Shown piece after piece: positions 8,405 through 59,286 of a stretch of 64,000 nucleotides of DNA. Under the pieces are notes generated by a model, which did not search any database, had not been told where the DNA came from, and saw nothing but the letters and a program-made list of their open reading frames with translations. The position numbers and the translations under genes were made by a program. The stretch is taken from contig OZ038390.1 of NCBI GenBank assembly GCA_964036045.1, positions 1,362,045 to 1,426,044 on the forward strand. The letters are read 5' to 3'. The number at the start of each line of letters is the position of its first letter. Position 1 is the stretch's first letter. The stretch is from Eutreptiella sp. 'Long Island Sound 2002'. Its lineage: Eukaryota; Euglenozoa; Euglenophyceae; Eutreptiales; Eutreptiaceae.

Positions 8405-8406
8405 GG

Positions 8407-27141: not shown

Positions 27142-27902
27142 GGCCCGGAGGCCACAACCCCCGGGGGAAACAAACAGCCAAAAGACTCACCAAAATGACT
27201 GGCGAGAGGATCAAGACTCGACTCCGGACGCAGCGGGGGCGCTGTCCGGGAGCAGAGGATGGCGCTGCCAGTCAGCGGGCAGCGACCCCCGATGTGGAGC
27301 AGCGGTCCAGGGATGGCCACTAGCGTCTGCCAGGTCACGCGTGATCAGAAGGAGCTGGATGCTGCTGAGTCGATCACGGGGCACAGCTGGTTCCTACTGA
27401 TTTCCGGGTGTGACAGGAGCCGATATTACTGAGTGGCACATGGTATGGGGCTGATTCCCAACGAAATTCACTTCACCCGCCGGATACTTGTGGCAGGTCC
27501 GCAGCGGTCCGCCTCAGGGGCCCGATCCGGGGGCACACTCCACGCTCCATCGCCTCCCACCCGAGACCCCTCGTCTTTGCCCCTGCTCAGACCCCGAGAT
27601 CACAGGGGCACTGTGGCCGTCGGTGCGGCCCAACGTCGACCGCGGGACGACCAGCGGCTCCCGCCCCTGCCCTCCCACGCTGGCCCAGAGCGGTCCGGAA
27701 GGAGGACCGCCCGATGGCTGCCCAGCGTCACCGTCGATGGACCAGCGGCAGCCGTCGCGCACCCGCCAACCGCCGGCACCGGCTCCGGCACCGGCACCGG
27801 CGTCGGTTAATCGCCAACCGCCATTACTTGGCCACCGAACCACCGCCGCAAAACCAACTTGCGACGGAAGGCCCGCACGAGGACAGCGCGGGCGACCCCC
27901 GG
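27142..27902. other. Downstream region of the TMEM184-like gene, no other gene supported
   Basis: GC-rich. Contains a short (GGCACC)n-like stretch near 27770-27805. If the minus-strand gene ends at 27903, this is its 3' flank or UTR. I saw no clear AATAAA-type signal on the minus strand. Confidence 0.35.
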
Positions 27903-28175
27903 TCACTTGAACATGCGGCCCGGGTCCGTCAGCGGCGAGGAGAGGCCGGGGGCGTCGCGGACCGGGGTATCGCAGAGCTGCAGCTGCAGCGACGTGGGGA
28001 AGAGGCGCGAGGGGGTGCCGGACCGGCCGCCGAAGGAGGAGGCGACGGACGGGGGCGACGCCGGCAAGCCCCCTTGACTGCCCACGGACATGGAGATGGA
28101 CCGGGAGCTGGAGGCCTGGCTCTCCGGGTGGCCCTCGCCGTACTGCTCGGTGCAGATGCTGCAGTCCTCGTCGAG
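27903..28175 (-). CDS. Proposed terminal exon: Ser-rich C-terminal tail
   Basis: A strong acceptor (gctttggttctgcag) precedes LDEDCSICTEQYGEGHPES, then a Ser/Gly-rich tail (SSSRSISMSVGSQGG) and stop TGA at 27905-27903. The acceptor is phase 0, as required by the donor at 51040. Joined sequence would read FLERFVLE-LDEDCSICTEQ. The alternative is that this exon ends an unrelated minus-strand gene whose other exons are not visible. No competing upstream exon is seen between it and the satellite. Confidence 0.5.
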   Translation of the reverse strand, partial: LDEDCSICTEQYGEGHPESQASSSRSISMSVGSQGGLPASPPSVASSFGGRSGTPSRLFPTSLQLQLCDTPVRDAPGLSSPLTDPGRMFK

Positions 28176-31100
28176 CTGCAGAACCAAAGCGACGATGGCC
28201 CACCGCAGCAACGGGACCATTTGAGATACACACGGACAATCAAGGCATACGTGGTGCTCGCTTGCCCCGCATTGTGTTGTACTAGTGATCAGCCCCGCTC
28301 TGTGCTTGCGCCCCTCTCCGCCAGACTAACAACATGGCTATGGAAATTGAACAAAGCATCCACAGCCACAGCCACACACGGGACATGGGTACACCGTAGG
28401 TACACTGTAGATAAACTGGTCAACTGTAGATAAACTGGTCCACTGTAGATAAACTGGTCCACTGTAGATACACTGGTCCACTGTAGGTAAACTGGTCCAC
28501 TGTAGGTAAACCGGTCCACTGTAGGTAAACTGGTCCACTGTAGGTAAACTGGTCTACTGTAGATAAACTGGTCCACTGTAGATACACTGGTCCACTGTAG
28601 GTAAACTGGTCCACTGTAGGTAAACTGGTCCACTGTAGGTAAACTGGTCCACTGTAGGTAAACTGGTCCACTGTAGGTAAACTGGTCCACTGTAGGTAAA
28701 CTGGTCCACTGTAGATAAACTGGTCCACTGTAGATAAACTGGTCCACTGTAGATAAACTGGTCCACTGTAGATAAACTGGTCCACTGTAGATAAACTGGT
28801 CCACTGTAGATACACTGGTCCACTGTAGGTAAACTGGTCCACTGTAGGTAAACTGGTCCACTGTAGATAAACTGGTCCACTGTAGGTAAACTGGTCCACT
28901 GTAGGTACACTGGTACACTGTAGGTAAACTGGTCCACTGTAGATAAACTGGTCCACTGTAGATAAACTGGTCCACTGTAGGTAAACTGGTCCACTGTAGA
29001 TAAACTGGTCCACTGTAGATAAACTGGTCCACTGTAGATAAACTGGTCCACTGTAGGTAAACTGGTCCACTGTAGGTAAACTGGTCCACTGTAGATAAAC
29101 CGGTCCACTGTAGATACACTGGTCCACTGTAGATACACTGGTCCACTGTAGGTAAACTGGTCCACTGTAGGTAAACTGGTCCACTGTAGATAAACTGGTC
29201 CACTGTAGGTAAACTGGTCCACTGTAGATAAACTGGTCCACTGTAGGTACACTGGTCTACTGTAGGTAAACTGGTCCACTGTAGATAAACTGGTCCACTG
29301 TAGATAAACTGGTCCACTGTAGGTAAACTGGTCCATTGTAGGTAAACTGGTCCACTGTAGATAAACTGGTCCACTGTAGGTAAACTGGTCCACTGTAGGT
29401 AAACTGGTCCACTGTGGATAAACTGGTCCACTGTAGATAAACTGGTCCACTGTAGATACACTGGTCCACTGTAGGTAAACTGGTCCACTGTAGGTAAACT
29501 GGTCCACTGTAGATAAACTGGTCCACTGTAGATAAACTGGTCCACTGTAGATACACTGGTCCACTGTAGATAAACTGGTCCACTGTAGATACACTGGTCC
29601 ACTGTAGGTAAACTGGTCCACTGTAGGTAAACTGGTCCACTGTAGGTAAACTGGTCCACTGCAGGTAAACTGGTCCACTGCAGGTAAACTGGTCCACTGT
29701 AGGTAAACTGGTCCACTGTAGGTAAACTGGTCCACTGTAGGTAAACTGGTCCACTGTAGGTAAACTGGTCCACTGTAGATAAACTGGTCCACTGTAGGTA
29801 AACTGGTCTACTGTAGGTAAACTGGTCCACTGTAGGTAAACTGGTCCACTGTAGGTAAACTGGTCCACTGTAGATAAACTGGCCCACTGTAGGTAAACTG
29901 GTCCACTGTAGGTCAACTGGTCCACTGTAGGTAAACTGGTCCACTGCAGGTAAACTGGTCCACTGTAGATACACTGGTCCACTGTAGGTAAACTGGTCCA
30001 CTGTAGGTAAACTGGTCCACTGTAGATAAACTGGTCCACTGTAGGTAAACTGATCCACTGTAGGTAAACTGGTCCACTGTAGGTAAACTGGTCCACTGTA
30101 GGTAAACTGGTCCACTGTAGGTAAACTGGTCTACTGTAGGTAAACTGGTCCACTGTAGGTAAACTGGTCCACTGTAGGTAAACTGGTCCACTGTAGATAA
30201 ACTGGTCCACTGTAGGTAAACTGGTCCACTGTAGGTCAACTGGTCCACTGTAGGTAAACTGGTCCACTGCAGGTAAACTGGTCCACTGTAGATACACTGG
30301 TCCACTGTAGGTAAACTGGTCCACTGTAGGTAAACTGGTCCACTGTAGGTAAACTGGTCCACTGTAGGTAAACTGGTCCACTGCAGGTAAACTGGTCCAC
30401 TGTAGGTAAACTGGTCCACTGCAGGTAAACTGGTCCACTGTAGGTAAACTGGTCCACTGTAGGTAAACTGGTCCACTGTAGGTAAACTGGTCCACTGTAG
30501 ATAAACTGGTCCACTGTAGGTACACTGGTCCACTGCAGGTAAACTGGTCCACTGTAGATAAACTGGTCCACTGTAGGTAAACTGGTCCACTGCAGGTAAA
30601 CTGGTCCACTGTAGGTAAACTGGTCCACTGTAGGTAAACTGGTCCACTGTAGGTAAACTGGTCCACTGTAGGTAAACTGGTCCACTGTAGATAAACTGGT
30701 CCACTGTAGGTAAACTGGTCCACTGTAGGTAAACTGGTCCACTGTAGGTAAACTGGTCCACTGTAGATACACTGGTCCACTGTAGGTAAACTGGTCCACT
30801 GTAGATAAACTGGTCCACTGTAGATAAACTGGTCCACTGTAGGTAAACTGGTCCACTGTAGATAAACTGGTCCACTGTAGGTAAACTGGTCCACTGTAGG
30901 TAAACTGGTCCACTGTAGGTAAACTGGTCCACTGCAGGTAAACTGGTCCACTGTAGGTAAACTGGTCCACTGTAGGTAAACTGGTCCACTGTAGATAAAC
31001 TGGTCCACTGTAGGTACACTGGTCTACTGTAGGTAAACTGGTCCACTGTAGATAAACTGGTCCACTGTAGGTAAACTGGTCCACTGTAGGTAAACTGGTC

Positions 31101-34100
31101 CACTGTAGGTAAACTGGTCCACTGTAGATAAACTGGTCCACTGTAGGTAAACTGGTCCACTGTAGGTAAACTGGTCCACTGTAGGTAAACTGGTCCACTG
31201 TAGGTAAACTGGTCCACTGTAGGTAAACTGGTCCACTGTAGGTAAACTGGTCCACTGTAGGTAAACTGGTCCACTGTAGGTAAACTGGTCCACTGCAGGT
31301 AAACTGGTCCACTGTAGGTAAACTGGTCCACTGTAGGTAAACTGGTCAACTGTAGATAAACTGGTCCACTGTAGGTACACTGGTCTACTGTAGGTAAACT
31401 GGTCCACTGTAGATAAACTGGTCCACTGTAGATAAACTGGTCCACTGTAGGTAAACTGGTCCACTGTAGGTAAACTGGTCCACTGTAGGTAAACTGGTCC
31501 ACTGTAGGTAAACTGGTCGTAGGTAAACTGGTCCACTGTAGGTAAACTGGTCCACTGTAGGTAAACTGGTCCACTGTAGGTAAACTGGTCCACTGTAGGT
31601 AAACTGGTCCACTGTAGGTAAACTGGTCCACTGTAGGTAAACTGGTCCACTGCAGGTAAACTGGTCCACTGTAGGTAAACTGGTCCACTGTAGGTAAACT
31701 GGTCCACTGTAGATAAACTGGTCCACTGTAGGTACACTGGTCTACTGTAGGTAAACTGGTCCACTGTAGATAAACTGGTCCACTGTAGATAAACTGGTCC
31801 ACTGTAGGTAAACTGGTCCACTGTAGGTAAACTGGTCCACTGTAGATAAACGGGTCCACTGTAGGTAAACTGGTCCACTGTAGATAAACTGGTCCACTGT
31901 AGATAAACTGGTCCACTGTAGATAAACTGGTCCACTGCAGGTAAACTGGTCCACTGTAGGTAAACTGGTCCACTGTAGGTAAACTGGTCCACTGTAGGTA
32001 AACTGGTCCACTGCAGGTAAACTGGTCCACTGTAGGTAAACTGGTCCACTGTAGGTAAACTGGTCCACTGTAGGTAAACTGGTCCACTGTAGGTAAACTG
32101 GTCCACTGTAGGTAAACTGGTCCACTGTAGATAAACTGGTCCACTGTAGGTACACTGGTCTACTGTAGGTAAACTGGTCCACTGTAGGTAAACTGGTCCA
32201 CTGTAGATAAACTGGTCCACTGTAGGTAAACTGGTCCACTGTAGATAAACTGGTCCACTGTAGGTAAACTGGTCCACTGTAGGTAAACTGGTCCACTGTA
32301 GGTAAACTGGTCCACTGCAGGTAAACTGGTCCACTGTAGGTAAACCGGTCCACTGTAGGTAAACTGGTTCACTGTAGGTAAACTGGTCCACTGTAGGTAA
32401 ACTGGTCCACTGTAGATAAACTGGTCCACTGTAGGTAAACTGGTCCACTGTAGGTAAACTGGTCCACTGTAGGTAAACTGGTCCACTGTAGATACACTGG
32501 TCCACTGTAGGTAAACTGGTCAACTGTAGGTAAACCGGTCCACTGTAGGTAAACTGGTCCACTGCAGGTAAACTGGTCCACTGTAGGTAAACTGGTCCAC
32601 TGCAGGTAAACTGGTCCACTGTAGGTAAACTGGTCCACTGTAGGTAAACTGGTCCACTGTAGGTAAACTGGTCTACTGTAGGTAAACTGGTCCACTGTAG
32701 GTAAACTGGTCCACTGTAGGTAAACTGGTCCACTGTAGATAAACTGGTCCACTGTAGGTAAACTGGTCCACTGTAGGTCAACTGGTCCACTGTAGGTAAA
32801 CTGGTCCACTGCAGGTAAACTGGTCCACTGTAGATACACTGGTCCACTGTAGGTAAACTGGTCCACTGTAGGTAAACTGGTCCACTGTAGGTAAACTGGT
32901 CCACTGTAGGTAAACTGGTCCACTGCAGGTAAACTGGTCCACTGTAGGTAAACTGGTCCACTGCAGGTAAACTGGTCCACTGTAGGTAAACTGGTCCACT
33001 GTAGGTAAACTGGTCCACTGTAGGTAAACTGGTCCACTGTAGATAAACTGGTCCACTGTAGGTACACTGGTCCACTGCAGGTAAACTGGTCCACTGTAGA
33101 TAAACTGGTCCACTGTAGGTAAACTGGTCCACTGTAGGTAAACTGGTCCACTGTAGGTAAACTGGTCCACTGTAGATACACTGGTCCACTGTAGGTAAAC
33201 TGGTCAACTGTACGTAAACCGGTCCACTGTAGGTAAACTGGTCCGTTGTAGGTAAACTGGTCCACTGTAGGTAAACTGGTCCACTGTAGGTAAACTGGTC
33301 CACTGTAGGTAAACTGGTCCACTGTAGGTAAACTGGTCCACTGTAGATAAACTGGTCCACTGTAGGTAAACTGGTCCACTGTAGGTCAACTGGTCCACTG
33401 TAGGTAAACTGGTCCACTGCAGGTAAACTGGTCCACTGTAGATACACTGGTCCACTGTAGGTAAACTGGTCCACTGTAGGTAAACTGGTCCACTGTAGGT
33501 AAACTGGTCCACTGTAGGTAAACTGGTCCACTGCAGGTAAACTGGTCCACTGTAGGTAAACTGGTCCACTGCAGGTAAACTGGTCTACTGTAGGTAAACT
33601 GGTCCACTGTAGGTAAACTGGTCCACTGTAGGTAAACTGGTCCACTGTAGATAAACTGGTCCACTGTAGGTACACTGGTCCACTGCAGGTAAACTGGTCC
33701 ACTGTAGATAAACTGGTCCACTGTAGGTAAACTGGTCCACTGTAGGTAAACTGGTCCACTGTAGGTAAACTGGTCCACTGTAGATACACTGGTCCACTGT
33801 AGGTAAACTGGTCAACTGTACGTAAACCGGTCCACTGTAGATAAACTGGTCCACTGTAGGTAAACTGGTCCACTGCAGGTAAACTGGTCCACTGTAGATA
33901 AACTGGTCCACTGTAGGTAAACTGGTCCACTGTAGGTAAACTGGTCCACTGTAGGTAAACTGGTCCACTGTAGGTAAACTGGTCCACTGCAGGTAAACTG
34001 GTCCACTGTAGGTAAACTGGTCCACTGCAGGTAAACTGGTCCACTGTAGGTAAACTGGTCCACTGTAGGTAAACTGGTCCACTGTAGGTAAACTGGTCCA

Positions 34101-37100
34101 CTGTAGATAAACTGGTCCACTGTAGGTACACTGGTCCACTGCAGGTAAACTGGTCCACTGTAGATAAACTGGTCCACTGTAGGTAAACTGGTCCACTGTA
34201 GGTAAACTGGTCCACTGTAGGTAAACTGGTCCACTGTAGATACACTGGTCCACTGTAGGTAAACTGGTCAACTGTACGTAAACCGGTCCACTGTAGGTAA
34301 ACTGGTCCACTGTAGGTAAACTGGTCCACTGTAGGTAAACTGGTCCACTGTAGGTAAACTGGTCCACTGTAGGTAAACTGGTCCACTGTAGGTAAACTGG
34401 TCCACTGTAGATAAACTGGTCCACTGTAGATAAACTGGTCCACTGTAGGTAAACTGGTCCACTGTAGATAAACTGGTCCACTGTAGGTAAACTGGTCCAC
34501 TGTAGGTAAACTGGTCCACTGTAGGTAAACTGGTCCACTGCAGGTAAACTGGTCCACTGTAGGTAAACTGGTCCACTGTAGGTAAACTGGTCCACTGTAG
34601 ATAAACTGGTCCACTGTAGGTACACTGGTCTACTGTAGGTAAACTGGTCCACTGTAGATAAACTGGTCCACTGTAGGTAAACTGGTCCACTGTAGGTAAA
34701 CTGGTCCACTGTAGGTAAACTGGTCCACTGTAGATAAACTGGTCCACTGTAGGTAAACTGGTCCACTGTAGGTAAACTGGTCCACTGTAGGTAAACTGGT
34801 CCACTGTAGGTAAACTGGTCCACTGTAGGTAAACTGGTCCACTGTAGATAAACTGGTCCACTGTAGGTAAACTGGTCCACTGTAGGTAAACTGGTCCACT
34901 GTAGGTAAACTGGTCCACTGTAGGTAAACTGGTCCACTGTAGGTAAACTGGTCCACTGTAGGTAAACTGGTCCACTGTAGGTAAACTGGTCCACTGTAGG
35001 TAAACTGGTCCACTGCAGGTAAACTGGTCCACTGTAGGTAAACTGGTCCACTGTAGGTAAACTGGTCCACTGTAGATAAACTGGTCCACTGTAGGTACAC
35101 TGGTCTACTGTAGGTAAACTGGTCCACTGTAGATAAACTGGTCCACTGTAGATAAACTGGTCCACTGTAGGTAAACTGGTCCACTGTAGGTAAACTGGTC
35201 CACTGTAGATAAACGGGTCCACTGTAGGTAAACTGGTCCACTGTAGATAAACTGGTCCACTGTAGATAAACTGGTCCACTGTAGATAAACTGGTCCACTG
35301 CAGGTAAACTGGTCCACTGTAGGTAAACTGGTCCACTGTAGGTAAACTGGTCCACTGTAGATAAACTGGTCCACTGTAGGTACACTGGTCCACTGTAGGT
35401 AAACTGGTCCACTGTAGATAAACTGGTCCACTGTAGATAAACTGGTCCACTGTAGGTAAACTGGTCCACTGTAGGTAAACTGGTCCACTGTAGATAAACT
35501 GGTCCACTGTAGGTAAACTGGTCCACTGTAGGTAAACTGGTCCACTGTAGGTAAACCGGTCCACTGTAGGTAAACTGGTCCACTGCAGGTAAACGGGTCC
35601 ACTGCAGGTAAACTGGTCCACTGTAGATAAACTGGTCCAATGTAGGTAAACTGGTCTACTGTAGGTAAACTGGTCCACTGTAGGTAAACTGGTCCACTGT
35701 AGATAAACTGGTCCACTGTAGATAAACTGGTCCACTGTAGGTAAACTGGTCCACTGTAGGTCAACTGGTCCACTGTAGGTAAACTGGTCCACTGCAGGTA
35801 AACTGGTCCACTGTAGATACACTGGTCCACTGTAGGTAAACTGGTCCACTGTAGGTAAACTGGTCCACTGTAGGTAAACTGGTCCACTGCAGGTAAACTG
35901 GTCCACTGTAGGTAAACTGGTCTACTGTAGGTAAACTGGTCTACTGTAGGTAAACTGGTCCACTGTAGGTAAACTGGTCCACTGTAGGTAAACTGGTCCA
36001 CTGTAGATAAACTGGTCCACTGTAACTACACTGGTCTACTGTAGGTAAACTGGTCCACTGTAGATAAACTGGTCCACTGTAGATAAACTGGTCCACTGTA
36101 GATAAACTGGTCCACTGTAGGTAAACTGGTCCACTGTAGGTAAACTGGTCCACTGTAGGTAAACTGGTCCACTGCAGGTAAACTGGTCCACTGTAGGTAA
36201 ACTGGTCCACTGTAGATAAACTGGTCCACTGTAGGTAAACTGGTCCACTGTAGGTAAACTGGTCCACTGTAGATAAACTGGTCCACTGTAACTACACTGG
36301 TCTACTGTAGGTAAACTGGTCCACTGTAGATAAACTGGTCCACTGTAGATAAACTGGTCCACTGTAGATAAACTGGTCCACTGTAGGTAAACTGGTCCAC
36401 TGTAGGTAAACTGGTCCACTGTAGGTAAACTGGTCCACTGTAGGTAAACTGGTCCACTGTAGGTAAACTGGTCCACTGTAGATAAACTGGTCCACTGTAG
36501 GTAAACTGGTCCACTGTAGGTAAACTGGTCCACTGTAGGTAAACTGGTCCACTGTAGATAAACTGGTCCACTGTAGGTAAACTGGTCCACTGTAGATAAA
36601 CTGGTCCACTGTAGATAAACTGGTCCACTGTAGGTAAACTGGTCCACTGTAGATAAACTGGTCCACTGTAGATACACTGGTCCACTGTAGATACACTGGT
36701 CAACTGTAGGTAAACCGGTCCACTGTAGGTAAACTGCTCCACTGTAGGTAAACTGGTCCACTGCAGGTAAACTGGTCCACTGTAGGTAAACTGGTCCACT
36801 GTAGGTAAACTGGTCTACTGTAGGTAAACTGGTCCACTGTAGATAAACTGGTCCACTGTAGATAAACTGGTCCACTGTAGATAAACTGGTCCACTGTAGA
36901 TAAACTGGTCCACTGTAGGTAAACTGGTCCACTGTAGGTAAACTGGTCCACTGTAGATACACTGGTCCACTGTAGGTAAACTGGTCAACTGTAGGTAAAC
37001 CGGTCCACTGTAGGTAAACTGGTCCACTGTAGGTAAACTGGTCCACTGTAGGTAAACTGGTCCACTGTAGGTAAACTGGTCTACTGTAGGTAAACTGGTC

Positions 37101-40100
37101 CACTGTAGGTAAACTGGTCTACTGTAGGTAAACTGGTCCACTGTAGGTAAACTGGTCCACTGCAGGTAAACTGGTCCACTGTAGGTAAACTGGTCCACTG
37201 TAGGTAAACTGGTCCACTGTAGGTAAACTGGTCCACTGTAGGTAAACTGGTCCACTGTAGGTAAACTGGTCCACTGTAGATAAACTGGTCCACTGTAGAT
37301 AAACTGGTCCACTGTAGGTAAACTGGTCCACTGTAGGTAAACTGGTCCATTGTAGGTAAACTGGTCCACTGTAGGTAAACTGGTCCACTGTAGGTAAACT
37401 GGTCCACTGTAGATAAACTGGTCCACTGTAGGTAAACTGGTCCACTGTAGGTAAACTGGTCCATTGTAGGTAAACTGGTCCACTGTAGATAAACTGGTCC
37501 ACTATAGGTAAACTGGTCCACTGTAGGTAAACTGGTCCACTGCAGGTAAACTGGTCCACTGTAGGTAAACCGGTCCACTGTAGGTAAACTGGTCCACTGT
37601 AGATAAACTGGTCCACTGTAGGTAAACTGGTCCACTGTAGGCAAACTGGTCCACTGTAGGTAAACTGGTCCACTGTAGGTAAACTGGTCCACTGTAGGTA
37701 AACTGGTTCACTGTAGGTAAACTGGTCCACTGCAGGTAAACTGGTCCACTGTAGGTAAACTGGTCCACTGTAGGTAGACTGGTCCACTGTAGATAAACTG
37801 GTCCACTGTAGGTAAACTGGTCCACTGTAGGTAAACTGGTCCACTGTAGGTAAACTGGTCCACTGTAGATAAACTGGTCCACTGTAGATAAACTGGTCCA
37901 CTGTAGATAAACTGGTCCACTGTAGATACACTGGTCCACTGTAGGTAAACTGGTCCACTGTAGGTAAACTGGTCCACTGTAGGTAAACTGGTCCACTGCA
38001 GGTAAACTGGTCCACTGTAGGTAAACTGGTCCACTGTAGGTAAACTGGTCCACTGTAGATAAACTGGTCCACTGTAGGTAAACTGGTCCACTGTAGGTAA
38101 ACTGGTCCACTGTAGGTAAACTGGTCCACTGTAGGTAAACTGGTCCACTGTAGGTAAACTGGTCCACTGTAGGTAAACTGGTCCACTGTAGATAAACTGG
38201 TCCACTGTAGATAAACTGGTCCACTGTAGGTAAACTGGTCCACTGTAGGTAAACTGGTCCACTGTAGGTAAACTGGTCCACTGCAGGTAAACTGGTCCAC
38301 TGTAGGTAAACTGGTCCACTGTAGATAAACTGGTCCACTGTAGATACACTGGTCCACTGTAGGTAAACTGGTCTACTGTAGGTAAACTGGTCCACTGTAG
38401 GTAAACTGGTCCACTGTAGGTAAACTGGTCCACTGTAGATAAACTGGTCCACTGTAGGTAAACTGGTCCACTGTAGGTAAACTGGTCCACTGTTGGTAAA
38501 CTGGTCCACTGTAGATACACTGGTCCACTGTAGGTAAACTGGTCAACTGTAGGTAAACCGGTCCACTGTAGGTAAACTGGTCCACTGTAGGTAAACTGGT
38601 CCACTGCAGGTAAACTGGTCCACTGTAGGTAAACTGGTCCACTGTAGGTAAACTGGTCCACTGTAGGTAAACTGGTCCACTGTAGGTAAACTGGTCCACT
38701 GTAGGTAAACTGGTCCACTGTAGGTAAACTGGTCCACTGTAGATACACTGGTCCACTGTAGGTAAACTGGTCCACTGTAGGTAAACCGGTCCACTGTAGG
38801 TAAACTGGTCCACTGTAGGTAAACTGGTCCACTGTAGGTAAACTGGTCCACTGTAGATAAACTGGTCCACTGTAGGTAAACTGGTGCACTGTAGGTAAAC
38901 TGGTCCACTGTAGGTAAACTGGTCCACTGTAGGTAAACTGGTCCACTGTAGGTAAACTGGTCCACTGTAGATAAACTGGTCCACTGTAGATAAACTGGTC
39001 CACTGTAGATAAACTGGTCCACTGTAGGTAAACTGGTCCACTGCAGGTAAACTGGTCCACTGTAGGTAAACTGGTCCACTGTAGATAAACTGGTCCACTG
39101 TAGATACACTGGTCCACTGTAGGTAAACTGGTCTACTGTAGGTAAACTGGTCCACTGTAGGTAAACTGGTCCACTGTAGGTAAACTGGTCCACTGTAGAT
39201 GAACTGGTCCACTGTAGGTAAACTGGTCCACTGTAGGTAAACTGGTCCACTGTAGGTAAACTGGTCCACTGTAGATACACTGGTCCACTGTAGGTAAACT
39301 GGTCAACTGTAGGTAAACCGGTCCACTGTAGGTAAACTGGTCCACTGTAGGTAAACTGGTCCACTGCAGGTAAACTGGTCCACTGTAGGTAAACTGGTCC
39401 ACTGTAGGTAAACTGGTCCACTGTAGGTAAACTGGTCCACTGTAGGTAAACTGGTCCACTGTAGGTAAACTGGTCCACTGTAGGTAAACTGGTCCACTGT
39501 AGATACACTGGTCCACTGTAGGTAAACTGGTCCACTGTAGGTAAACCGGTCCACTGTAGGTAAACTGGTCCACTGTAGGTAAACTGGTCCACTGTAGGTA
39601 AACTGGTCCACTGTAGATAAACTGGTCCACTGTAGGTAAACTGGTCCACTGTAGGTAAACTGGTCCACTGTAGGTAAACTGGTCCACTGTAGGTAAACTG
39701 GTCCACTGCAGGTAAACTGGTCGACTGTAGGTAAACTGGTCCACTGTAGGTAAACTGGTCCACTGTAGGTAAACTGGTCCACTGTAGGTAAACTGGTCCA
39801 CTGTAGGTAAACTGGTCCACTGTAGGTAAACTGGTCCACTGTAGATACACTGGTCCACTGTAGGTAAACTGGTCAACTGTAGGTAAACCGGTCCACTGTA
39901 GGTAAACTGGTCCACTGTAGGTAAACTGGTCCACTGCAGGTAAACTGGTCCACTGTAGGTAAACTGGTCCACTGTAGGTAAACTGGTCCACTGTAGGTAA
40001 ACTGGTCCACTGTAGGTAAACTGGTCCACTGTAGATAAACTGGTCCACTGTAGATAAACTGGTCCACTGTAGATAAACTGGTCCACTGTAGGTAAACTGG

Positions 40101-43100
40101 TCCACTGTAGGTAAACTGGTCCACTGTAGGTAAACTGGTCCACTGCAGGTAAACTGGTCCACTGTAGGTAAACTGGTCCACTGTAGATAAACTGGTCCAC
40201 TGTAGATACACTGGTCCACTGTAGGTAAACTGGTCTACTGTAGGTAAACTGGTCCACTGTAGGTAAACTGGTCCACTGTAGGTAAACTGGTCTACTGTAG
40301 ATAAACTGGTCCACTGTAGGTAAACTGGTCCACTGTAGGTAAACTGGTCCACTGTAGGTAAACTGGTCCACTGTAGATACACTGGTCCACTGTAGGTAAA
40401 CTGGTCAACTGTAGGTAAACCGGTCCACTGTAGGTAAACTGGTCCACTGTAGGTAAACTGGTCCACTGCAGGTAAACTGGTCCACTGTAGGTAAACTGGT
40501 CCACTGTAGGTAAACTGGTCCACTGTAGGTAAACTGGTCCACTGTAGGTAAACTGGTCCACTGTAGGTAAACTGGTCCACTGTAGGTAAACTGGTCCACT
40601 GTAGATACACTGGTCCACTGTAGGTAAACTGGTCCACTGTAGGTAAACCGGTCCACTGTAGGTAAACTGGTCCACTGTAGGTAAACTGGTCCACTGTAGG
40701 TAAACTGGTCCACTGTAGGTAAACTGGTCCACTGTAGGTAAACTGGTCCACTGTAGGTAAACTGGTCTACTGTAGGTAAACTGGTCCACTGTAGATACAC
40801 TGGTCCACTGTAGGTAAACTGGTCCACTGTAGGTAAACTGGTCCACTGTAGATAAACTGGTCCACTGTAGGTAAACTGGTCCACTGCAGGTAAACTGGTC
40901 CACTGTAGGTAAACTGGTCCACTGTAGGTAAACTGGTCCACTGTAGGTAAACTGGTCCACTGTAGGTAAACTGGTCCACTGTAGGTAAACTGGTCCACTG
41001 TAGGTAAACTGGTCGACTGTAGGTAAACTGGTCCACTGCAGGTAAACTGGTCCACTGCAGGTAAACTGGTCCACTGTAGGTAAACTGGTCCACTGTAGAT
41101 AAACTGGTCCACTGTAGGTAAACTGGTCCACTGTAGGTAAACTGGTCCGCTGTAGGTAAACTGGTCCACTGTAGATAAACTGGTCCACTGTAGATAAACT
41201 GGTCCACTGTAGATAAACTAGTCCACTGTAGGTAAACTGGTCCACTGTAGGTAAACTGGTCCACTGTAGGTAAACTGGTCCACTGTAGGTAAACTGGTCC
41301 ACTGCAGGTAAACTGGTCCACTGTAGGTAAACTGGTCCACTGTAGGTAAACTGGTCCACTGTAGATAAACTGGTCCACTGTAGGTAAACTGGTCCACTGT
41401 AGGTAAACTGGTCCACTGTAGGTAAACTGGTCCACTGTAGGTAAACTGGTCCACTGTAGGTAAACTGGTCCACTGTAGATAAACTGGTCCACTGTAGATA
41501 AACGGGTCCACTGTAGATAAACTGGTCCACTGTAGGTAAACTGGTCCACTGTAGGTAAACTGGTCCACTGCAGGTAAACTGGTCCACTGTAGGTAAACTG
41601 GTCCACTGTAGGTAAACTGGTCCACTGTAGATAAACTGGTCCACTGTAGGTAAACTGATCCACTGTAGGTAAACTGGTCCACTGTAGGTAAACTGGTCCA
41701 CTGTAGGTAAACTGGTCCACTGTAGATAAACTGGTCCACTGTAGATAAACTGGTCCACTGTAGATAAACTAGTCCACTGTACGTAAACTGGTCCACTGTA
41801 GGTAAACTGGTCCACTGTAGGTAAACTGGTCCACTGTAGGTAAACTGGTCCACTGCAGGTAAACTGGTCCACTGTAGGTAAACTGGTCCACTGTAGGTAA
41901 ACTGGTCCACTGTAGATAAACTGGTCCACTGTAGGTAAACTGGTCCACTGTAGGTAAACTGGTCCACTGTAGGTAAACTGGTCCACTGTAGGTAAACTGG
42001 TCCACTGTAGGTACACTGGTCCACTGTAGGTAAACTGGTCCACTGTAGATAAACTGGTCCACTGTAGATAAACTGGTCCACTGTAAGTAAACTGGTCCAC
42101 TGTAGATAAACTGGTCCACTGTAGATAAACTGGTCCACTGTAGATAAACTGGTCCACTGTAGGTAAACTGGTCCACTGTAGATAACCTGGTCCACTGTAG
42201 ATAAACTGGTCCACTGTAGATACACTGGTCCACTGTAGGTAAACTGGTCCACTGTAGGTAAACTGGTCCACTGTAGGTAAACTGGTCCACTGTAGGTAAA
42301 CTGGTCCACTGTAGATAAACTGGTCCACTGTAGGTAAACTGGTCCACTGTAGATAAACTGGTCCACTGTAGGTACACTGGTCTACTGTAGGTAAACTGGT
42401 CCACTGTAGATAAACTGGTCCACTGTAGATAAACTGGTCCACTGTAGGTAAACTGGTCCACTGTAGGTAAACTGGTCCACTGTAGATAAACTGGTCCACT
42501 GTAGGTAAACTGGTCCACTGTAGGTAAACTGGTCCACTGTAGATAAACTGGTCCACTGTAGATAAACTGGTCCACTGTAGATACACTGGTCCACTGTAGG
42601 TAAACTGGTCCACTGTAGGTAAACCGGTCCACTGTAGGTAAACTGGTCCACTGCAGGTAACCTGGTCCACTGTAGGTAAACTGGTCCACTGTAGGTAAAC
42701 TGGTCCACTGTAGGTAAACTGGTCCACTGTAGGTAAACTGGTCCACTGTAGGTACACTGGTCTACTGTAGGTAAACTGGTCCACTGTAGGTAAACTGGTC
42801 CACTGTAGATAAACTGGTCCACTGTAGGTAAACTGGTCCACTGTAGGTAAACTGGTCCACTGTAGATAAACTGGTCCACTGTAGGTAAACTGGTCCACTG
42901 TAGATAAACTGGTCCACTGTAGGTACACTGGTCTACTGTAGGTAAACTGGTCCACTGTAGATAAACTGGTCCACTGTAGATAAACTGGTCCACTGTAGGT
43001 AAACTGGTCCACTGTAGGTAAACTGGTCCACTGTAGATAAACTGGTCCACTGTAGGTAAACTGGTACACTGTAGGTAAACTGGTCCACTGTAGATAAACT

Positions 43101-46100
43101 GGTCCACTGTAGATAAACTGGTCCACTGTAAGTAAACTGGTCCACTGTAGATAAACTGGTCCACTGTAGATAAACTGGTCCACTGTAGATAAACTGGTCC
43201 ACTGTAGGTAAACTGGTCCACTGTAGATAACCTGGTCCACTGTAGATAAACTGGTCCACTGTAGATACACTGGTCCACTGTAGGTAAACTGGTCCACTGT
43301 AGGTAAACTGGTCCACTGTAGGTAAACTGGTCCACTGTAGGTAAACTGGTCCACTGTAGATAAACTGGTCCACTGTAGGTAAACTGGTCCACTGTAGATA
43401 AACTGGTCCACTGTAGATAAACTGGTCCACTGTAGATACACTGGTCCACTGTAGGTAAACTGGTCCACTGTAGGTAAACCGGTCCACTGTAGGTAAACTG
43501 GTCCACTGCAGGTAACCTGGTCCACTGTAGGTAAACTGGTCCACTGTAGGTAAACTGGTCCACTGTAGGTAAACTGGTCCACTGTAGGTAAACTGGTCCA
43601 CTGTAGGTAAACTGGTCCACTGTAGGTAAACTGGTCCACTGTAGGTAAACTGGTCCACTGTAGGTAAACTGGTCCACTGCAGGTAAACTGGTCCACTGTA
43701 GGTAAACTGGTCCACTGTAGGTAAACTGGTCCACTGTAGGTAAACTGGTCCACTGTAGGTAAACTGGTCCACTGCAGGTAAACTGGTCCACTGTAGGTAA
43801 ACTGGTCCACTGTAGGTAAACTGGTCCACTGTAGGTAAACTGGTCCACTGTAGGTAAACTGGTCCACTGTAGGTAAGCTGGTCCACTGTAGATACACTGG
43901 TCCACTGTAGGTAAACTGGTCCACTGTAGGTAAACTGGTCCACTGTAGGTAAACTGGTCCACTGTAGGTAAACTGGTCCACTGTAGATAAACTGGTCCAC
44001 TGTAGATAAACTGGTCCACTGTAGGTAAACTGGTCCACTGTAGATAAACTGGTCCACTGTAGATACACTGGTCCACTGTAGGTAAACTGGTCCACTGTAG
44101 GTAAACTGGTCCACTGTGGGTAAACTGGTCCACTGTAGATAAACTGGTCCACTGTAGGTAAACTGGTCCACTGTAGGTAAACTGGTCCACTGTAGGTAAA
44201 CTGGTCCACTGTAGGTAAACTGGTCCACTGTAGATAAACTGGTCCACTGTAGATAAACTGGTCCACTGTAGGTAAACTGGTCCACTGTAGATAAACTGGT
44301 CCACTGTAGATACACTGGTCCACTGTAGGTAAACTGGTCCACTGTAGGTAAACTGGTCCACTGTAGGTAAACTGGTCCACTGTAGGTAAACCGGTCCACT
44401 GTAGGTAAACTGGTCCACTGCAGGTAACCTGGTCCACTGTAGGTAAACTGGTCCACTGTAGGTAAACTGGTCCACTGTAGATAAACTGGTCCACTGTAGA
44501 TAAACTGGTCCACTGTAGGTAAACTGGTCCACTGTAGGTAAACTGGTCCACTGTAGATAAACTGGTCCACTGTAGGTACACTGGTCTACTGTAGGTAAAC
44601 TGGTCCACTGTAGATAAACTGGTCCACTGTAGATAAACTGGTCCACTGTAGGTAAACTGGTCCACTGTAGGTAAACTGGTCCACTGTAGATAAACTGGTC
44701 CACTGTAGGTAAACTGGTCCACTGTAGGTAAACTGGTCCACTGTAGATAAACTGGTCCACTGTAGATAAACTGGTCCACTGTAGATACACTGGTCCACTG
44801 TAGGTAAACTGGTCCACTGTAGGTAAACTGGTCCACTGTAGATAAACTGGTCCACTGTAGATAAACTGGTCCACTGTAGATACACTGGTCCACTGTAGGT
44901 AAACTGGTCCACTGTAGGTAAACCGGTCCACTGTAGGTAAACTGGTCCACTGCAGGTAACCTGGTCCACTGTAGGTAAACTGGTCCACTGTAGGTAAACT
45001 GGTCCACTGTAGGTAAACTGGTCCACTGTAGGTAAACTGGTCCACTGTAGGTAAACTGGTCCACTGTAGGTAAACTGGTCCACTGTAGGTAAACTGGTCC
45101 ACTGTAGGTAAACTGGTCCACTGCAGGTAAACTGGTCCACTGTAGGTAAACTGGTCCACTGTAGGTAAACTGGTCCACTGTAGGTAAACTGGTCCACTGT
45201 AGGTAAACTGGTCCACTGCAGGTAAACTGGTCCACTGTAGGTAAACTGGTCCACTGTAGGTAAACTGGTCCACTGTAGGTAAACTGGTCCACTGTAGGTA
45301 AACTGGTCCACTGTAGGTAAGCTGGTCCACTGTAGATACACTGGTCCACTGTAGGTAAACTGGTCCACTGTAGGTAAACTGGTCCACTGTAGGTAAACTG
45401 GTCCACTGTAGGTAAACTGGTCCACTGTAGATAAACTGGTCCACTGTAGATAAACTGGTCCACTGTAGGTAAACTGGTCCACTGTAGATAAACTGGTCCA
45501 CTGTAGATACACTGGCCCACTGTAGGTAAACTGGTCCACTGTAGGTAAACTGGTCCACTGTAGGTAAACTGGTCCACTGTAGATAAACTGGTCCACTGTA
45601 GGTAAACTGGTCCACTGTAGGTAAACTGGTCCACTGTAGGTAAACTGGTCCACTGTAGGTAAACTGGTCCACTGTAGATAAACTGGTCCACTGTAGATAA
45701 ACTGGTCCACTGTAGGTAAACTGGTCCACTGTAGATAAACTGGTCCACTGTAGATACACTGGTCCACTGTAGGTAAACTGGTCCACTGTAGGTAAACTGG
45801 TCCACTGTAGGTAAACTGGTCCACTGTAGGTAAACCGGTCCACTGTAGGTAAACTGGTCCACTGCAGGTAACCTGGTCCACTGTAGGTAAACTGGTCCAC
45901 TGTAGGTAAACTGGTCCACTGTAGATAAACTGGTCCACTGTAGATAAACTGGTCCACTGTAGGTAAACTGGTCCACTGTAGGTAAACTGGTCCACTGTAG
46001 ATAAACTGGTCCACTGTAGATAAACTGGTCCACTGTAGATAAACTGGTCCACTGTAGGTAAACTGGTCCACTGTAGGTAAACTGGTCCACTGTAGGTAAA

Positions 46101-49100
46101 CTGGTCCACTGTAGGTAAACTGGTCCACTGTAGATAAACTGGTCCACTGCAGGTAAACTGGTCCACTGTAGGTAAACTGGTCCACTGCAGGAAAACTGGT
46201 CCACTGTAGGTAAACTGGTCCACTGTAGATAAACTGGTCCACTGTAGGTAAACTGGTCCACTGTAGGTAAACTGGTCCACTGTAGGTAAACTGGTCCACT
46301 GTAGGTAAACTGGTCCACTGTAGGTAAACTGGTCCACTGTAGGTAAACTGGTCCACTGTAGGTAAACTGGTCCACTGTAGGTAAACTGGTCCACTGCAGG
46401 TAAACTGGTCCACTGTAGGTAAACTGGTCCACTGTAGGTAAACTGGTCCACTGTAGATAAACTGGTCCACTGTAGGTAAACTGGTCCACTGTAGGTAAAC
46501 TGGTCCACTGTAGGTAAACTGGTCCACTGTAGGTAAACTGGTCCACTGTAGGTAAACTGGTCCACTGTAGATAAACTGGTCCACTGTAGATAAACTGGTC
46601 CACTGTAGATAAACTGGTCCACTGTAGGTAAACTGGTCCACTGTAGGTAAACTGGTCCACTGTAGGTAAACTGGTCCACTGTAGGTAAACTGGTCCACTG
46701 TAGGTAAACTGGTCCACTGTAGATAAACTGGTCCACTGTAGGTAAACTGGTCCACTGTAGGTAAACTGGTCCACTGTAGGAAAACTGGTCCACTGTAGGT
46801 AAACTGGTCCACTGTAGGTAAACTGGTCCACTGTAGGTAGACTGGTCCACTGTAGATAAACTGGTCCACTGTAGATAAACTGGTCCACTGTAGGTAAACT
46901 GGTCCACTGTAGGAAAACTGGTCCACTGTAGATAAACTGGTCCACTGTAGGTAAACTGGTCCACTGTAGGAAAACTGGTCCACTGTAGGTAAACTGGTCC
47001 ACTGTAGGTAAACTGGTCCACTGTAGATAAACTGGTCCACTGTAGGTAAACTGGTCCACTGTAGGTAAACTGGTCTACTGTAGGTAAACTGGTCCACTGT
47101 AGATAAACTGGTCCACTGTAGGTAAACTGGTCCACTGTAGGTAAACTGGTCCACTGTAGATAAACTGGTCCACTGTAGGTAAACTGGTCCACTGTAGGAA
47201 AACTGGTCCACTGTAGGTAAACTGGTCCACTGTAGGTAAACTGGTCCACTGCAGGTAAACTGGTCCACTGTAGGTAAACTGGTCCACTGTAGATAAACTG
47301 GTCCACTGTAGATACACTGGTCCACTGTAGGTAAACTGGTCTACTGTAGGTAAACTGGTCCAGTGTAGGTAAACTGGTCCACTGTAGGTAAACTGGTCCA
47401 CTGTAGATAAACTGGTCCACTGTAGATAAACTGGTCCACTGTAGGTACACTGGTACACTGTAGGTAAACTGGTCCACTGTAGATAAACTGGTCCACTGTA
47501 GATAAACTCGTCCACTGTAGGTAAACTGGTCCACTGTAGATAAACTGGTCCACTGTAGATAAACTGGTCCACTGTAGATAAACTGGTCCACTGTAGGTAA
47601 ACTGGTCCACTGTAGATAACCTGGTCCACTGTAGATAAACTGGTCCACTGTAGATACACTGGTCCACTGTAGGTAAACTGGTCCACTGTAGGTAAACTGG
47701 TCCACTGTAGGTAAACTGGTCCACTGTAGATAAACTGGTCCACTGTAGGTAAACTGGTCCACTGTAGATAAACTGGTCCACTGTAGATAAACTGGTCCAC
47801 TGTAGATAAACTGGTCCACTGTAGATACACTGGTCCACTGTAGGTAAACTGGTCCACTGTAGGTAAACTGGTCCACTGTAGGTAAACTGGTCCACTGTAG
47901 ATAAACTGGTCCACTGTAGGTAAACTGGTCTACTGTAGGTAAACTGGTCCACTGTAGATAAACTGGTCCACTGTAGATAAACTGGTCCACTGTAGGTAAA
48001 CTGGTCCACTGTAGGTAAACTGGTCCACTGTAGATAAACTGGTCCACTGTAGGTAAACTGGTCCACTGTAGATAAACTGGTCCACTGTAGATAAACTGGT
48101 CCACTGTAGATAAACTGGTCCACTGTAGATACACTGGTCCACTGTAGGTGAACTGGTCCACTGCAGGTAAACTGGTCCACTGTAGGTAAACTGGTCCACT
48201 GTAGGTAAACTGGTCCACTGTAGATAAACTGGTCCACTGTAGATACACTGGTCCACTGTAGGTAAACTGGTCCACTGTAGGTAAACTGGTCCACTGTAGG
48301 TAAACTGGTCCACTGTAGATAAACTGGTCCACTGTAGATAAACTGGTCCACTGTAGATAAACTGGTCCACTGTAGATAAACTGGTCCACTGTAGATAAAC
48401 TGGTCCACTGTAGGTAAACTGGTCCACTGTAGGTAAACTGGTCCACTGTAGGTCAACTGGTCCACTGTAGGTAAACTGGTCCACTGCAGGTAAACTGGTC
48501 CACTGTAGGTAAACTGGTCCACTGTAGGTAAACTGGTCCACTGCAGGTAAACTGGTCCACTGTAGGTAAACTGGTCCACTGTAGGTAAACCGGTCCACTG
48601 TAGGTAAACTGGTCCACTGTAGGTAAACTGGTCCACTGTAGGTAAACTGGTCCACTGTAGATAAACTGGTCCACTGTAGGTAAACTGGTCCACTGTAGGT
48701 AAACTGGTCCACTGTAGGTAAACTGGTCCACTGTAGATACACTGGTCCACTGTAGGTAAACTGGTCCACTGTAGGTAAACTGGTCCACTGTAGGTAAACT
48801 GGTCCACTGCAGGTAAACTGGTCCACTGCAGGTATACTGGTCCACTGTAGGTAAACTGGTCCACTGTAGGTAAACTGGTCCACTGTAGGTAAACTGGTCT
48901 ACTGTAGGTAAACTGGTCCACTGTAGATAAACTGGTCCACTGTAGGTAAACTGGTCCACTGTAGGTAAACTGGTCCACTGTAGGTAAACTGGTCCACTGC
49001 AGGTAAACTGGTCCACTGTAGATAAACTGGTCCACTGTAGGTAAACTGGTCCACTGTAGGTAAACTGGTCCACTGCAGGTAAACTGGTCCACTGTAGGTA

Positions 49101-52100
49101 AACTGGTCCACTGTAGATAAACTGGTCCACTGTAGATAAACTGGTCCACTGTAGGTAAACTGGTCCACTGTAGGTAAACTGGTCCACTGTAGGTAAACTG
49201 GTCCACTGTAGGTAAACTGGTCCACTGTAGGTAAACTGGTCCACTGTAGGTAAACTGGTCCACTGTAGATAAACTGGTCCACTGTAGATAAACTGGTCCA
49301 CTGTAGATAAACTGGTCCACTGTAGGTAAACTGGTCCACTGTAGGTAAACTGGTCCACTGTAGGTAAACTGGTCCACTGTAGATACACTGGTCCACTGTA
49401 GGTAAACTGGTCCACTGTAGGTAAAGCGGTCCACTGTAGGTAAACTGGTCCACTGCAGGTAAACTGGTCCACTGCAGGTAAACTGGTCCACTGTAGGTAA
49501 ACTGGTCCACTGTAGGTAAACTGGTCCACTGTAGGTAAACTGGTCTACTGTAGGTAAACTGGTCCACTGTAGATAAACTGGTCCACTGTAGGTAAACTGG
49601 TCCACTGTAGGTAAACTGGTCCACTGTAGGTAAACTGGTCCACTGCAGGTAAACTGGTCCACTGTAGGTAAACTGGTCCACTGTAGATAAACTGGTCCAC
49701 TGTAGGTAAACTGGTCCACTGTAGGTAAACTGGTCCACTGTAGGTACACTGGTCCACTGTAGGTAAACTGGTCCACTGTAGGTAAACTGGTCCACTGTAG
49801 GTAAACTGGTCCACTGTAGGTAAACTGGTCCACTGCAGGTAAACTGGTCCACTGTAGGTAAACTGGTCCACTGTAGATAAACTGGTCCACTGTAGATAAA
49901 CTGGTCCACTGTAGGTAAACTGGTCCACTGTAGGTAAACTGGTCCACTGTAGGTAAACTGGTCCACTGTAGGTAAACTGGTCCACTGTAGGTAAACTGGT
50001 CCACTGTAGGTAAACTGGTCCACTGTAGATAAACTGGTCCACTGTAGATAAACTGGTCCACTGTAGATAAACTGGTCCACTGTAGGTAAACTGGTCCACT
50101 GTAGGTAAACTGGTCCACTGTAGGTAAACTGGTCCACTGTAGGTAAACTGGTCCACTGTAGGTAAACTGGTCCACTGTAGATAAACTGGTCCACTGTCCC
50201 ATGGTTCTTCATGGGACTGTGATCAGCCTAGAATGTGTACAGTGCCTCTTCACTGCTTCCCGTACCCTACCATTGCCGATGGTTTTCAGCCCCGCGTCAG
50301 CACCACAACACTTGGCCCCCGATCCGAAGCCGAGGACGGCGCACGGGCGCATGGGAGGGCTCCTACAGCCACCACTCCCCTTCCCCCTCTTGCGAGAACA
50401 GCGATAACCACCGTGAGACTGAGAGACACACGCCCCTCTGTTGCTGCGACAGGGGCTTGGCTTACACGCACCCTGAGAACACGCCCACAGTGCCCGGGCC
50501 ACGTATAAGGGCCCGCACGCCCGGACACCCACAGACAAGTGGCAACGAGTGGCAGGGCAGTCATGAGCATCCCCAAAACACAATCCCCAGCCTCAAAGCA
50601 CAAGATAAACTTAGTCCATATGGACACACCCAGAGAAAGGAACCGCCCAATTCCATGGCTCCAGGCGGTGCCGGTGAGCCACCTCCGTATGCCTCCCCCT
50701 TAGCGTTCACGGCGCGAGAGAAGGGCCCGTGCCAAGGGCTCAGGTGTCCTCGCTGGGGAACGGGCGCCTGTTGGGGTGCCTAATGGGCGCCTTCAGGGCG
50801 TTGAATGGGCGCCTGGAGGGCAATGGGCGCCAAGAGGGCGGCTGCCGCCTGGTCATCCCGGTCGTGAACAATGATCCCAGGCCCCATCCTACCGTTGCGG
50901 ACACCAAACCTCGTGTCGCTCTGACAGAGGGGGCCGTTGCTCTCGCACCGGGGGCTGCACGTCGCCACAAACGAATGCCACATCCACAAGACAGGCACAG
51001 CCGGTGCCACGCTCCCAAGGGCAACGACACGTGCGCACACCTCCAGAACGAAGCGCTCCAGAAAGTCGTCCTTCAGGTGGCCCCCCAGCAGCCGAGACAC
51101 GTCATTGTAGGCGTCCCCCACCATGACCCTTGGGTTCAGCGAGTGCCGAGGGATCCACGCCCTCTCTCTGGACAGCGCACGTATCCCTGCAGCAACGCGA
51201 CCATCGGCAGCGGGTGGCGTGGGGTGCGGCTTGTCCAGGCCGCGTCCCAGCATCGTATGGACCGGGGCCGGGGGGGGGGAGGGTGTAGGGCGAAGGCTGG
51301 TGGTGCGTGTGGGCAAACGGGGATGCTCCGCTGCATGCGCGCCGCTGGCGTCCGGTTTGACGGACGGTTACAGACGGCCCCAGAATGAGGGAAAAAAAAG
51401 GCAAACGGGCGCCACCCGACATCAAAGCGGACGCAAACCGACACACCGGCAATGTCAACAACGCACAGCCACATTCCCTATGATCCGCTCAACCATCGGC
51501 CGGGGGTATCACGCCAGTCCGCAACACTCGTCGTCGCCGGCAGTCATTTCACAAACCCCAAACGCAAACCAAACCCCCCGAAAAAAACTAATAACATGGG
51601 GCCCAACAGACGCCACCTCGAACCAAAGCGGACCCAAACGGACGCACCCGACGATCACAAAGGACGCGCCCAGACGGGCACCCACAATGCAACGGACGCC
51701 GGCATCGCCTACGCTCCCATGGCATTGCCATATCGGGCGCCCGCGCACATGGCATCGGGGGCACAGGGGCACAGGGCTACGGGCGCAGGGGGGGGGGGGC
51801 AGGGGGGCATACGGTTGAGCACGTTCTCATCGCACCCCTCCACAAACGGCCGGTACGAGAACACCTTCCGGAAGGCCAGGGCGACCAGCAGCATCTCCAC
51901 GCAGATCAGGAAGTCCTGCAGGCTCATGTCTATCTCCGAAGCAGAGCGGGTCAACGTCTGCTCGATCAGGCGGAGGCTTGTGCAGATCGCCACCACAATG
52001 CCTGACCAGGGGGTGTGACTGCAGAGGCCGGGGCCAGGGATGTGCTTATCCACCGGGGGGAAGGGGGAAGGGGGGTGTGACCTAATTAAAAAACAGACAA

Positions 52101-56818: not shown

Positions 56819-57018
56819 NNNNNNNNNNNNNNNNNNNNNNNNNNNNNNNNNNNNNNNNNNNNNNNNNNNNNNNNNNNNNNNNNNNNNNNNNNNNNNNNNN
56901 NNNNNNNNNNNNNNNNNNNNNNNNNNNNNNNNNNNNNNNNNNNNNNNNNNNNNNNNNNNNNNNNNNNNNNNNNNNNNNNNNNNNNNNNNNNNNNNNNNNN
57001 NNNNNNNNNNNNNNNNNN
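56819..57018. other. Scaffold gap, 200 Ns
   Basis: Exactly 200 N, so probably a placeholder of unknown true length. Missing N-terminal exons of the minus-strand gene could lie here. Confidence 0.99.
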
Positions 57019-59013: not shown

Positions 59014-59286
59014 CCCGCACGTGGGGCGAGCCCCCCAACGGCGCGAGTGTGCGGGCTCTCTGGGGCGCAAGCAGGTCTCAAAGCGCTCTACACATGCACG
59101 TCCTGGTATGCATATGCAGCAATGTGGAGGCAGTTCCCCAAGATCATTGGTATGATACAAATGTGCTACCTTACAATCAACTGCACCTGATGGCCTTTGT
59201 TTTGTCAACACCACAGTGTTTGTATGCTACAAGACTTCTTTGCTTTTCTGCATCAAGGACCGCCCCAGGGACCACTCGACTTGCCC

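Follow-up and report, generated by a model that had tools for sequence, protein, structure and literature searches.

A 19-bp minisatellite probably fills the last intron of a partial TMEM184 gene in Eutreptiella

We propose that one 19-bp minisatellite, present in about 1147 copies, has probably expanded locally until it filled the last intron of a TMEM184 gene in Eutreptiella sp. 'Long Island Sound 2002'. The gene lies on the minus strand of the window, by which we mean the whole stretch of 64,000 nucleotides that was analysed. The putative intron, intron 4, spans 22,865 nt (28176..51040, minus strand), and 95.3% of it is array. This is our best model; it is unproven, and the junction between exons 4 and 5 is a prediction that is probably right. 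The arrangement would be unusual but not unprecedented.

The identity of the gene comes from three exons, in a numbering where exon 1 is not the gene's first exon. Exon 1 (55478..55678, minus strand) encodes the TMEM184 core MFLRRVYICILQYVVIKPLSAV, lies between the acceptor CTGCAG and the donor GTATAG, and is 53-54% identical to a paralogue on contig C1258. Exon 2 (54190..54347, minus strand, GC3 0.92) encodes YIWVTIIVTTSVAIAVYALVNFYVATANILEPLNPIWMFLSVKAILFASFWQ, and exon 3 (51813..52001, minus strand) encodes SIVVAICTSLRLIEQ...LQDFLICVEMLLVALAFRKVFSYRPFVEGCDENVLN; its acceptor, GGTCAG, was picked by reading frame. The joined protein matches PF03619 (Solute_trans_a) with E=2.1e-44 and 152.3 bits against a cut-off of 24.9, which bears out the TMEM184/DUF300 identity that a first-pass annotation had given to the three exons at 51.8-55.7 kb. 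The match covers profile positions 101-267 of 267, running from residue 3 of the joined protein to residue 172 in exon 3, and it supports reading exons 1-3 as the second half of a TMEM184/DUF300 (PF03619) protein. The other half of the profile, positions 1-100, was not found between 55.5 and about 108 kb with a profile of five paralogues (best E 0.077, unconvincing), nor on C13 when the genome was searched with the C2 paralogue and the best candidates were scored. Because this half was not found, we file the gene as an apparently partial member of TMEM184/DUF300 and make no claim that it is intact; it may not be complete, or the 200-N assembly gap at 56819..57018 may have disturbed it. That gap is 1.1 kb upstream of exon 1 and may be the place of the N-terminal exons.

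Exon 4 (51041..51186, minus strand, GC3 0.81) carries a C-terminal box, SLNPRVMVGDAYNDVSRLLGG, and ends in phase 0 at the donor GTGTGC. We take TMEM184 proteins to have a box of the NPxxVVxDxxxD kind past their last transmembrane segment, and we count exon 4 as having it. The box aligns, also when read by eye, with VSQRDVVEDIARTMGG of the C2 paralogue and VNPQRMVK of the C1258 paralogue, in both cases after the same core, and tblastn alignments that start in the core extend into exon 4 with E=2e-7 for C2 and E=3e-5 for C1258, the box itself making up a short part of them. The coding score of exon 4 taken alone is weak, at 2.5.

Exon 5 (27903..28175, minus strand) would be the last coding exon, a Ser-rich tail of 90 codons plus TGA behind a CTGCAG acceptor. 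It is very likely coding on the minus strand, judging by its codons. Its GC3 is 0.96. None of the 7,866 windows on both strands of 1-27800 attains its GC3 score of 28.4, nor does any of the stop-free windows among the 26,434 taken from 13 other loci. A plus-strand gene at the same place was rejected: the plus ORF at 27414-28430 has no Pfam match at E<=0.1, and the coding-like segments on that strand score 14.4 and 12.5 versus 26.3 on the minus strand. The hexamer CTGCAG stands directly before four of the five exons, exon 5 included, and this strand has only 34 of them in the 42.2 kb that lie outside the array. The tail is single copy, with no other match at E<=1 in a search of the whole genome and none in Pfam or NCBIfam. 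Homology with the tail of the C2 paralogue was also rejected, the similarity being no longer than five residues (E=0.87).

Read together, exons 1-5 form one open frame with compatible phases and GT-AG borders. The donors are GTATAG, GTCTCC, GTATGC and GTGTGC, and the introns measure 1130, 2188, 626 and, as predicted, 22,865 nt. The last of these would run from the donor at 51040 to the acceptor GTTCTGCAG at 28176, in phase 0 on both sides. A scan of the sequence outside the array for coding-like segments (at least 25 codons, score above 8) found no other one on the minus strand between exons 4 and 5. The first-pass annotation's account of the array, the exon borders, the phases and the sibling introns of 626-2188 nt holds. 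It had further proposed that exons 4 and 5 continue the gene, and this is partly borne out: frame, phase, the box in exon 4 and the acceptor and coding signal of exon 5 agree with it, while the junction from 51041 to 28175 stands as a prediction.

The alternative that survives best, though we judge it unlikely, is that exon 5 belongs to a separate single-exon gene of 105 codons, MVPLLRWAIVALVLQ..., and that the array is intergenic and just downstream of TMEM184. This gene would begin at an in-frame ATG (28218..28220, minus strand) 15 codons upstream of the exon 5 acceptor. The maximal coding segment starts exactly at this ATG, and the 15 codons that follow it score +2.2 on GC3 alone versus -9.8 for the 15 codons before it. 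The genome search and the comparison with the C2 tail revealed no TMEM184 tail that resembles exon 5, and the composition of exon 5 is unlike that of the other exons, with GC2 of 0.62 versus 0.34-0.40 and a GC3 score per codon of 0.32 versus 0.05-0.24, a deviation that a Ser/Pro-rich tail may explain. However, the CTGCAG acceptor and its pyrimidine-rich tract (11 of 16) sit exactly at the phase-0 border. A pyrimidine tract can also read as hydrophobic codons, and the coding segment of exon 1 likewise enters its own acceptor tract, by about six codons. If the 15 residues are taken as a signal peptide there is by eye no plausible cleavage site, and exon 4, if the gene were separate, would run on into non-coding sequence.

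Less likely still, and improbable in our view, is a TMEM184 transcript that stops short of the array. It could end by reading exon 4 through to a stop just below 50783, or at an unrecognised last exon at 50.2-51.0 kb. The frame does stay open for 86 codons past exon 4, and the C2 paralogue by eye apparently has its box and tail in one exon. Yet the read-through, with a GC3 of 0.72, scores -8.9 for coding, and the coding scan, at the same thresholds, found no minus-strand segment in 50198-51037. Exon 4 read through to its stop was rejected, its one Pfam match being below threshold (E=0.21, with 10.7 bits where 27 are required).

The array itself (28399..50197, minus strand) spans 21,799 bp and holds 1147.5 copies of the 19-bp unit according to TRF, the sense unit being CTACAGTGGACCAGTTTAY. 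After re-registration, 1145 units show 97.2% identity to the consensus, and there is a single indel, near 31522. Repeated runs of units reach a length of 36, compared with at most 16 in 30 shuffles, and this is the expectation for growth via local duplication. The 2.28-Gb assembly has 368 exact dimers of the consensus, every one of them inside the array and on the minus strand, which rules out, for the exact dimer, membership in a genome-wide satellite family. Neither viral contigs nor contigs of prokaryote genomes contained exact patterns of the repeat. Folding of 285 nt of the array gave z = +0.66 as RNA and +0.87 as DNA relative to shuffles, nothing beyond composition. No RNA gene was found within the window, 15 other loci had no Rfam match, and solved structures gave no match at E<=1. 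That the flanks are not true neighbours, the array being a misassembly of two places or of the wrong length, is very improbable. In its favour, a 200-N gap interrupts a similar array on C21 and the orientation is flipped there, so that long arrays can evidently break the assembly, and here too a gap lies 6.6 kb from the array. Against it, the array described here contains no gap, the exons that flank it are single copy, and rare unit variants are spread through it. Since the exact dimer occurs at no second place, there is no other array of the unit to confuse it with, and a misjoin of two similar arrays is unlikely.

On C21, a minisatellite of 34.8 kb stands behind a TMEM184 paralogue; its 12-bp unit, CCCCATGGATGT, is unrelated to the 19-bp unit. 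Like the array described here it exceeds 20 kb and lies just 3' of a conserved TMEM184 core. Unlike in our model, no tail exon is recognised beyond it, and a transporter-like exon is found there instead. A second satellite-filled intron was considered for this locus and rejected, as no TMEM184 tail box was found on either side of the array (best E 2.7); the C21 array may be intergenic. Long minisatellites thus occur elsewhere in this GC-rich genome. At first reading, a single intron made up almost wholly of one satellite was said to be striking if real; the description is softened by the presence of such arrays near other genes of the genome.

Vertebrate introns contain minisatellites and VNTRs with units of 10-60 bp that expand locally at single loci and are usually well below 10 kb. 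The array here is like them in unit size, local expansion, restriction to one locus and, in our model, its place in an intron, and at 21.8 kb it is longer. Another parallel is offered by the Drosophila Y-loop genes kl-3, kl-5 and ks-1, which have gigantic introns containing satellite (PMC6508621, PMC11207136). Those introns are Y-linked, with simple satellites such as AATAT extending over megabases; their transcription has been shown, and RNA-binding proteins are required for their expression (PMC6508621, PMC11207136). Both systems would be protein-coding genes with an intron that is nearly all short tandem repeat, which for our gene is predicted. The Eutreptiella case differs in being 22 kb long, in lying on a 64-Mb scaffold in a genome that is GC-rich, in having a unit whose exact dimer is confined to one locus, and in being known from sequence alone. 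In Tribolium castaneum, satellite-like repeats are found in the introns of ordinary genes too, where 29 of 68 TCAST satellite elements lie (PMC3411249). The TCAST elements are dispersed relatives of a major pericentromeric satellite, one group being partial monomers or short arrays up to tetramers (PMC3411249), unlike the one long array here, the exact dimer of which is seen nowhere else in the assembly.

Our preferred reading, the array-filled intron, suggests the following scenario. The 19-bp unit would have expanded locally within the last intron, between the box exon and the Ser-rich tail exon. The array would be transcribed along with the gene and then removed with the intron; it would have no function of its own and would most likely be tolerated because it is intronic. 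Its sense strand has 1,128 acceptor-like CTRCAG sites and neither a GTRAG donor nor an AATAAA, for which reason those sites would presumably be passed over in exon definition. The same strand has only 59 stop codons over three frames, versus 2,125 on the antisense strand, and stop-to-stop ORFs of up to 2,260 codons. If exon 4 were sometimes spliced into a unit, a long tail of 19-residue repeats would result in whichever frame; we think this exceedingly improbable, and if it did happen the length of a membrane-protein tail could be set by the length of the array.

If the predicted junction is real, the gene would show, in a compact natural setting, how splicing gets past a thousand acceptor-like sites that are nearly identical. 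The test case would be an ordinary membrane-protein gene of a size suited to long reads and minigenes, unlike the megabase Y introns of flies. It would also mean that genes of this genome can tolerate arrays of tens of kilobases.

Five predicted exons of a TMEM184/DUF300 gene lie on the minus strand of the window, at 55678-55478, 54347-54190, 52001-51813, 51186-51041 and 28175-27903 (exons 1 to 5, counted from the first in the window). Joined, they give a single open frame of 321 residues that ends in TGA, with GT-AG introns of compatible phase. The Pfam profile PF03619 (Solute_trans_a, length 267) matches residues 3-172 of the joined protein at 152 bits over profile positions 101-267, which bears out the identity the first-pass annotation gave the core exons. 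This puts the end of the domain in exon 3, with exons 4 and 5 past it. The introns measure 1130, 2188, 626 and 22,865 nt, and a 19-bp minisatellite at 28399-50197 (TRF; 1147.5 copies, period 19) makes up 95.3% of the last. The array, exon borders, open frame and phases are as that annotation described them, and so are the sizes of the predicted introns, one more than 95% satellite beside siblings of 0.6-2.2 kb. Its central claim was that the satellite sits within an intron of the gene; the array and the frame hold, while the join of exon 4 to exon 5 is the best model and is predicted. We consider this placement of the array probable.

Profile positions 1-100 are missing from the gene model. 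A five-paralogue profile gave nothing convincing in the roughly 52 kb upstream from exon 1 (best E=0.077), and a whole-genome search with a paralogue from contig C2 as query, which scores best candidates only, did not find the N-terminal half on C13, the contig that carries the window at 1362045-1426044. The same search recovered the N-terminal exon of the paralogue on contig C1258 (E=1e-6). The missing part most likely falls in a 200-N gap that lies 1.1 kb upstream of exon 1, given that in the C1258 paralogue some 1.4 kb separates the corresponding exon from the one before it.

The gene's sense strand is the minus strand, on which the array unit is most commonly read as CTACAGTGGACCAGTTTAC (648 of 1145 registered units); a further 234 are the same with a final T. 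Units average 97.2% identity to the consensus, with one indel, near 31522. The longest exactly repeated run is 36 units, whereas 30 shuffles averaged 12.5 and never exceeded 16; the array thus fits growth by local block duplication. The exact consensus dimer occurs 368 times in the whole assembly (2.28 Gb in 2205 contigs; C13 measures 64 Mb, the largest contig observed 201 Mb), always on one strand, and the window accounts for all 368. Folding 285 nt of the array gave no structure exceeding that of shuffles. Stop codons over three frames number 59 on the sense strand and 2,125 on the antisense strand, but chance alone leaves a 19-bp unit without stops on one strand often enough that no functional conclusion follows from these counts.

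Exon 4 carries SLNPRVMVGDAYNDVSRLLGG, which resembles the short C-terminal box that follows the last transmembrane segment of the TMEM184 core. Directly after the same core the paralogues have KTVSQRDVVEDIARTMGG (C2) and HAVNPQRMVK (C1258), in alignments that begin in the core and reach E=2e-7 and E=3e-5. The similarity is short, but its position is right. The coding score of exon 4 is weakly positive (2.5), and read-through beyond its donor gives 86 codons scoring -8.9.

Scored on codon positions 2 and 3, exon 5 is the top coding-like segment of 1-28398. Its GC3 is 0.96, beside 0.89, 0.92, 0.89 and 0.81 for exons 1-4, and its GC3 score of 28.4 is reached by 0 of 3,933 windows on each strand in 1-27800 (maximum 20.3). 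Of 26,434 windows from 13 other loci, none that is stop-free reaches it either, though the windows overlap and are not independent; that control excluded L029, L030, L034-L037, the C21 array pieces, the search-hit loci and the short pieces L021-L024, L027 and L028. Known exons of the paralogues in L031 and L033 also fall below this score, which marks the test as specific but not sensitive. The acceptor of exon 5 is GTTCTGCAG, and CTGCAG, the hexamer of four of the gene's predicted acceptors, precedes four of the five exons with only 34 occurrences in 42.2 kb of minus strand outside the array. The composition of exon 5 is unlike that of its siblings (GC2 0.62 versus 0.34-0.40; GC3 score per codon 0.32 versus 0.05-0.24), and its tail has no match in Pfam or NCBIfam and no second genome copy at E<=1. 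The coding segment can be extended 15 codons upstream to an in-frame ATG at 28220, so a separate gene of 105 codons is possible. Joining exon 5 to exon 4 is nevertheless the model we prefer.

Long minisatellites are not confined to the C13 array. TRF arrays make up 6.7% of 156 kb in 19 loci, mostly chosen for TMEM184 homology or proximity to the window rather than at random, with four stretches of at least 500 bp. Most strikingly, the C21 paralogue is followed, 3.2 kb past its last recognised exon, by an array of a different, 12-bp unit, CCCCATGGATGT, covering 34.8 kb (C21:28871279-28906104; L035, L045-L048) as 30.1 kb, a 200-N gap and 4.5 kb inverted. Beyond it we read by eye a transporter-like exon and found no TMEM184 tail box. 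Seven TMEM184 loci were seen in the assembly (C13, C21, C1258, C1582, C873 and two on C2). On the 3' side of two of them lies an array exceeding 20 kb, the 3' flank covered being unequal between loci. In the 10-kb pieces around both C2 copies, C1582 and C873 no array reached 500 bp; a 505-bp array does occur at C1258, at a greater distance from its TMEM184 copy. The two C2 copies (L033 and L034, at 182.25 and 184.33 Mb) are near-identical, at 98% across 117 residues in their N-terminal halves, and lie 2 Mb apart in opposite orientation. A TMEM184-like N-terminal exon lies at C25:2864289-2864483 (L055), with no C-terminal half among the matches listed for C25 and none recognised in the 3.2-kb locus. 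About 10 kb outside the window, a 10-bp array of GCTGTCACAA has 132 copies (L040, C13:1436045-1446044, at 466-1791).

Within the window, an ORF at 59230-60177 (minus) matches Temptin_C (E=8e-8) and, at 29.9 bits, just below the 30-bit cut-off, a beta-roll ice-binding-like profile. A 21-bp array (59281-59737, 21.8 copies) overlaps this ORF and may thus be translated as 7-residue repeats. Retroelement-like ORFs at 7511-8419 (minus) and 14468-15187 (plus) match RVT_1 reverse transcriptase (E=2e-13) and an endonuclease/exonuclease/phosphatase domain (E=2e-11).

Satellite-filled introns are already known, and the predicted C13 case is an uncommon instance. In Drosophila, introns of the Y genes kl-3 and kl-5 contain megabases of simple satellite and are reported to be transcribed (PMC6508621), full transcription reportedly needing co-transcriptional splicing (PMC11207136). 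Of 68 dispersed satellite-like elements in Tribolium, 29 are intronic (PMC3411249). Unlike both, the present case is one exact-dimer locus of 22 kb in a predicted intron of an ordinary membrane-protein gene. A narrow literature search of titles and abstract openings found no comparable protist array, from which we do not claim absence from print.

The sense strand of the predicted intron contains no GTRAG donor and no AATAAA. Under exon definition, an acceptor that lacks a partner donor would be expected to be passed over. The argument from GTRAG is weaker than it looks, because none of the four donors in the gene itself (GTATAG, GTCTCC, GTATGC and GTGTGC) has that form either. If the model is true, splicing confronts 1,049 CTACAG and 79 CTGCAG acceptor-like sites in the sense strand of this one intron.
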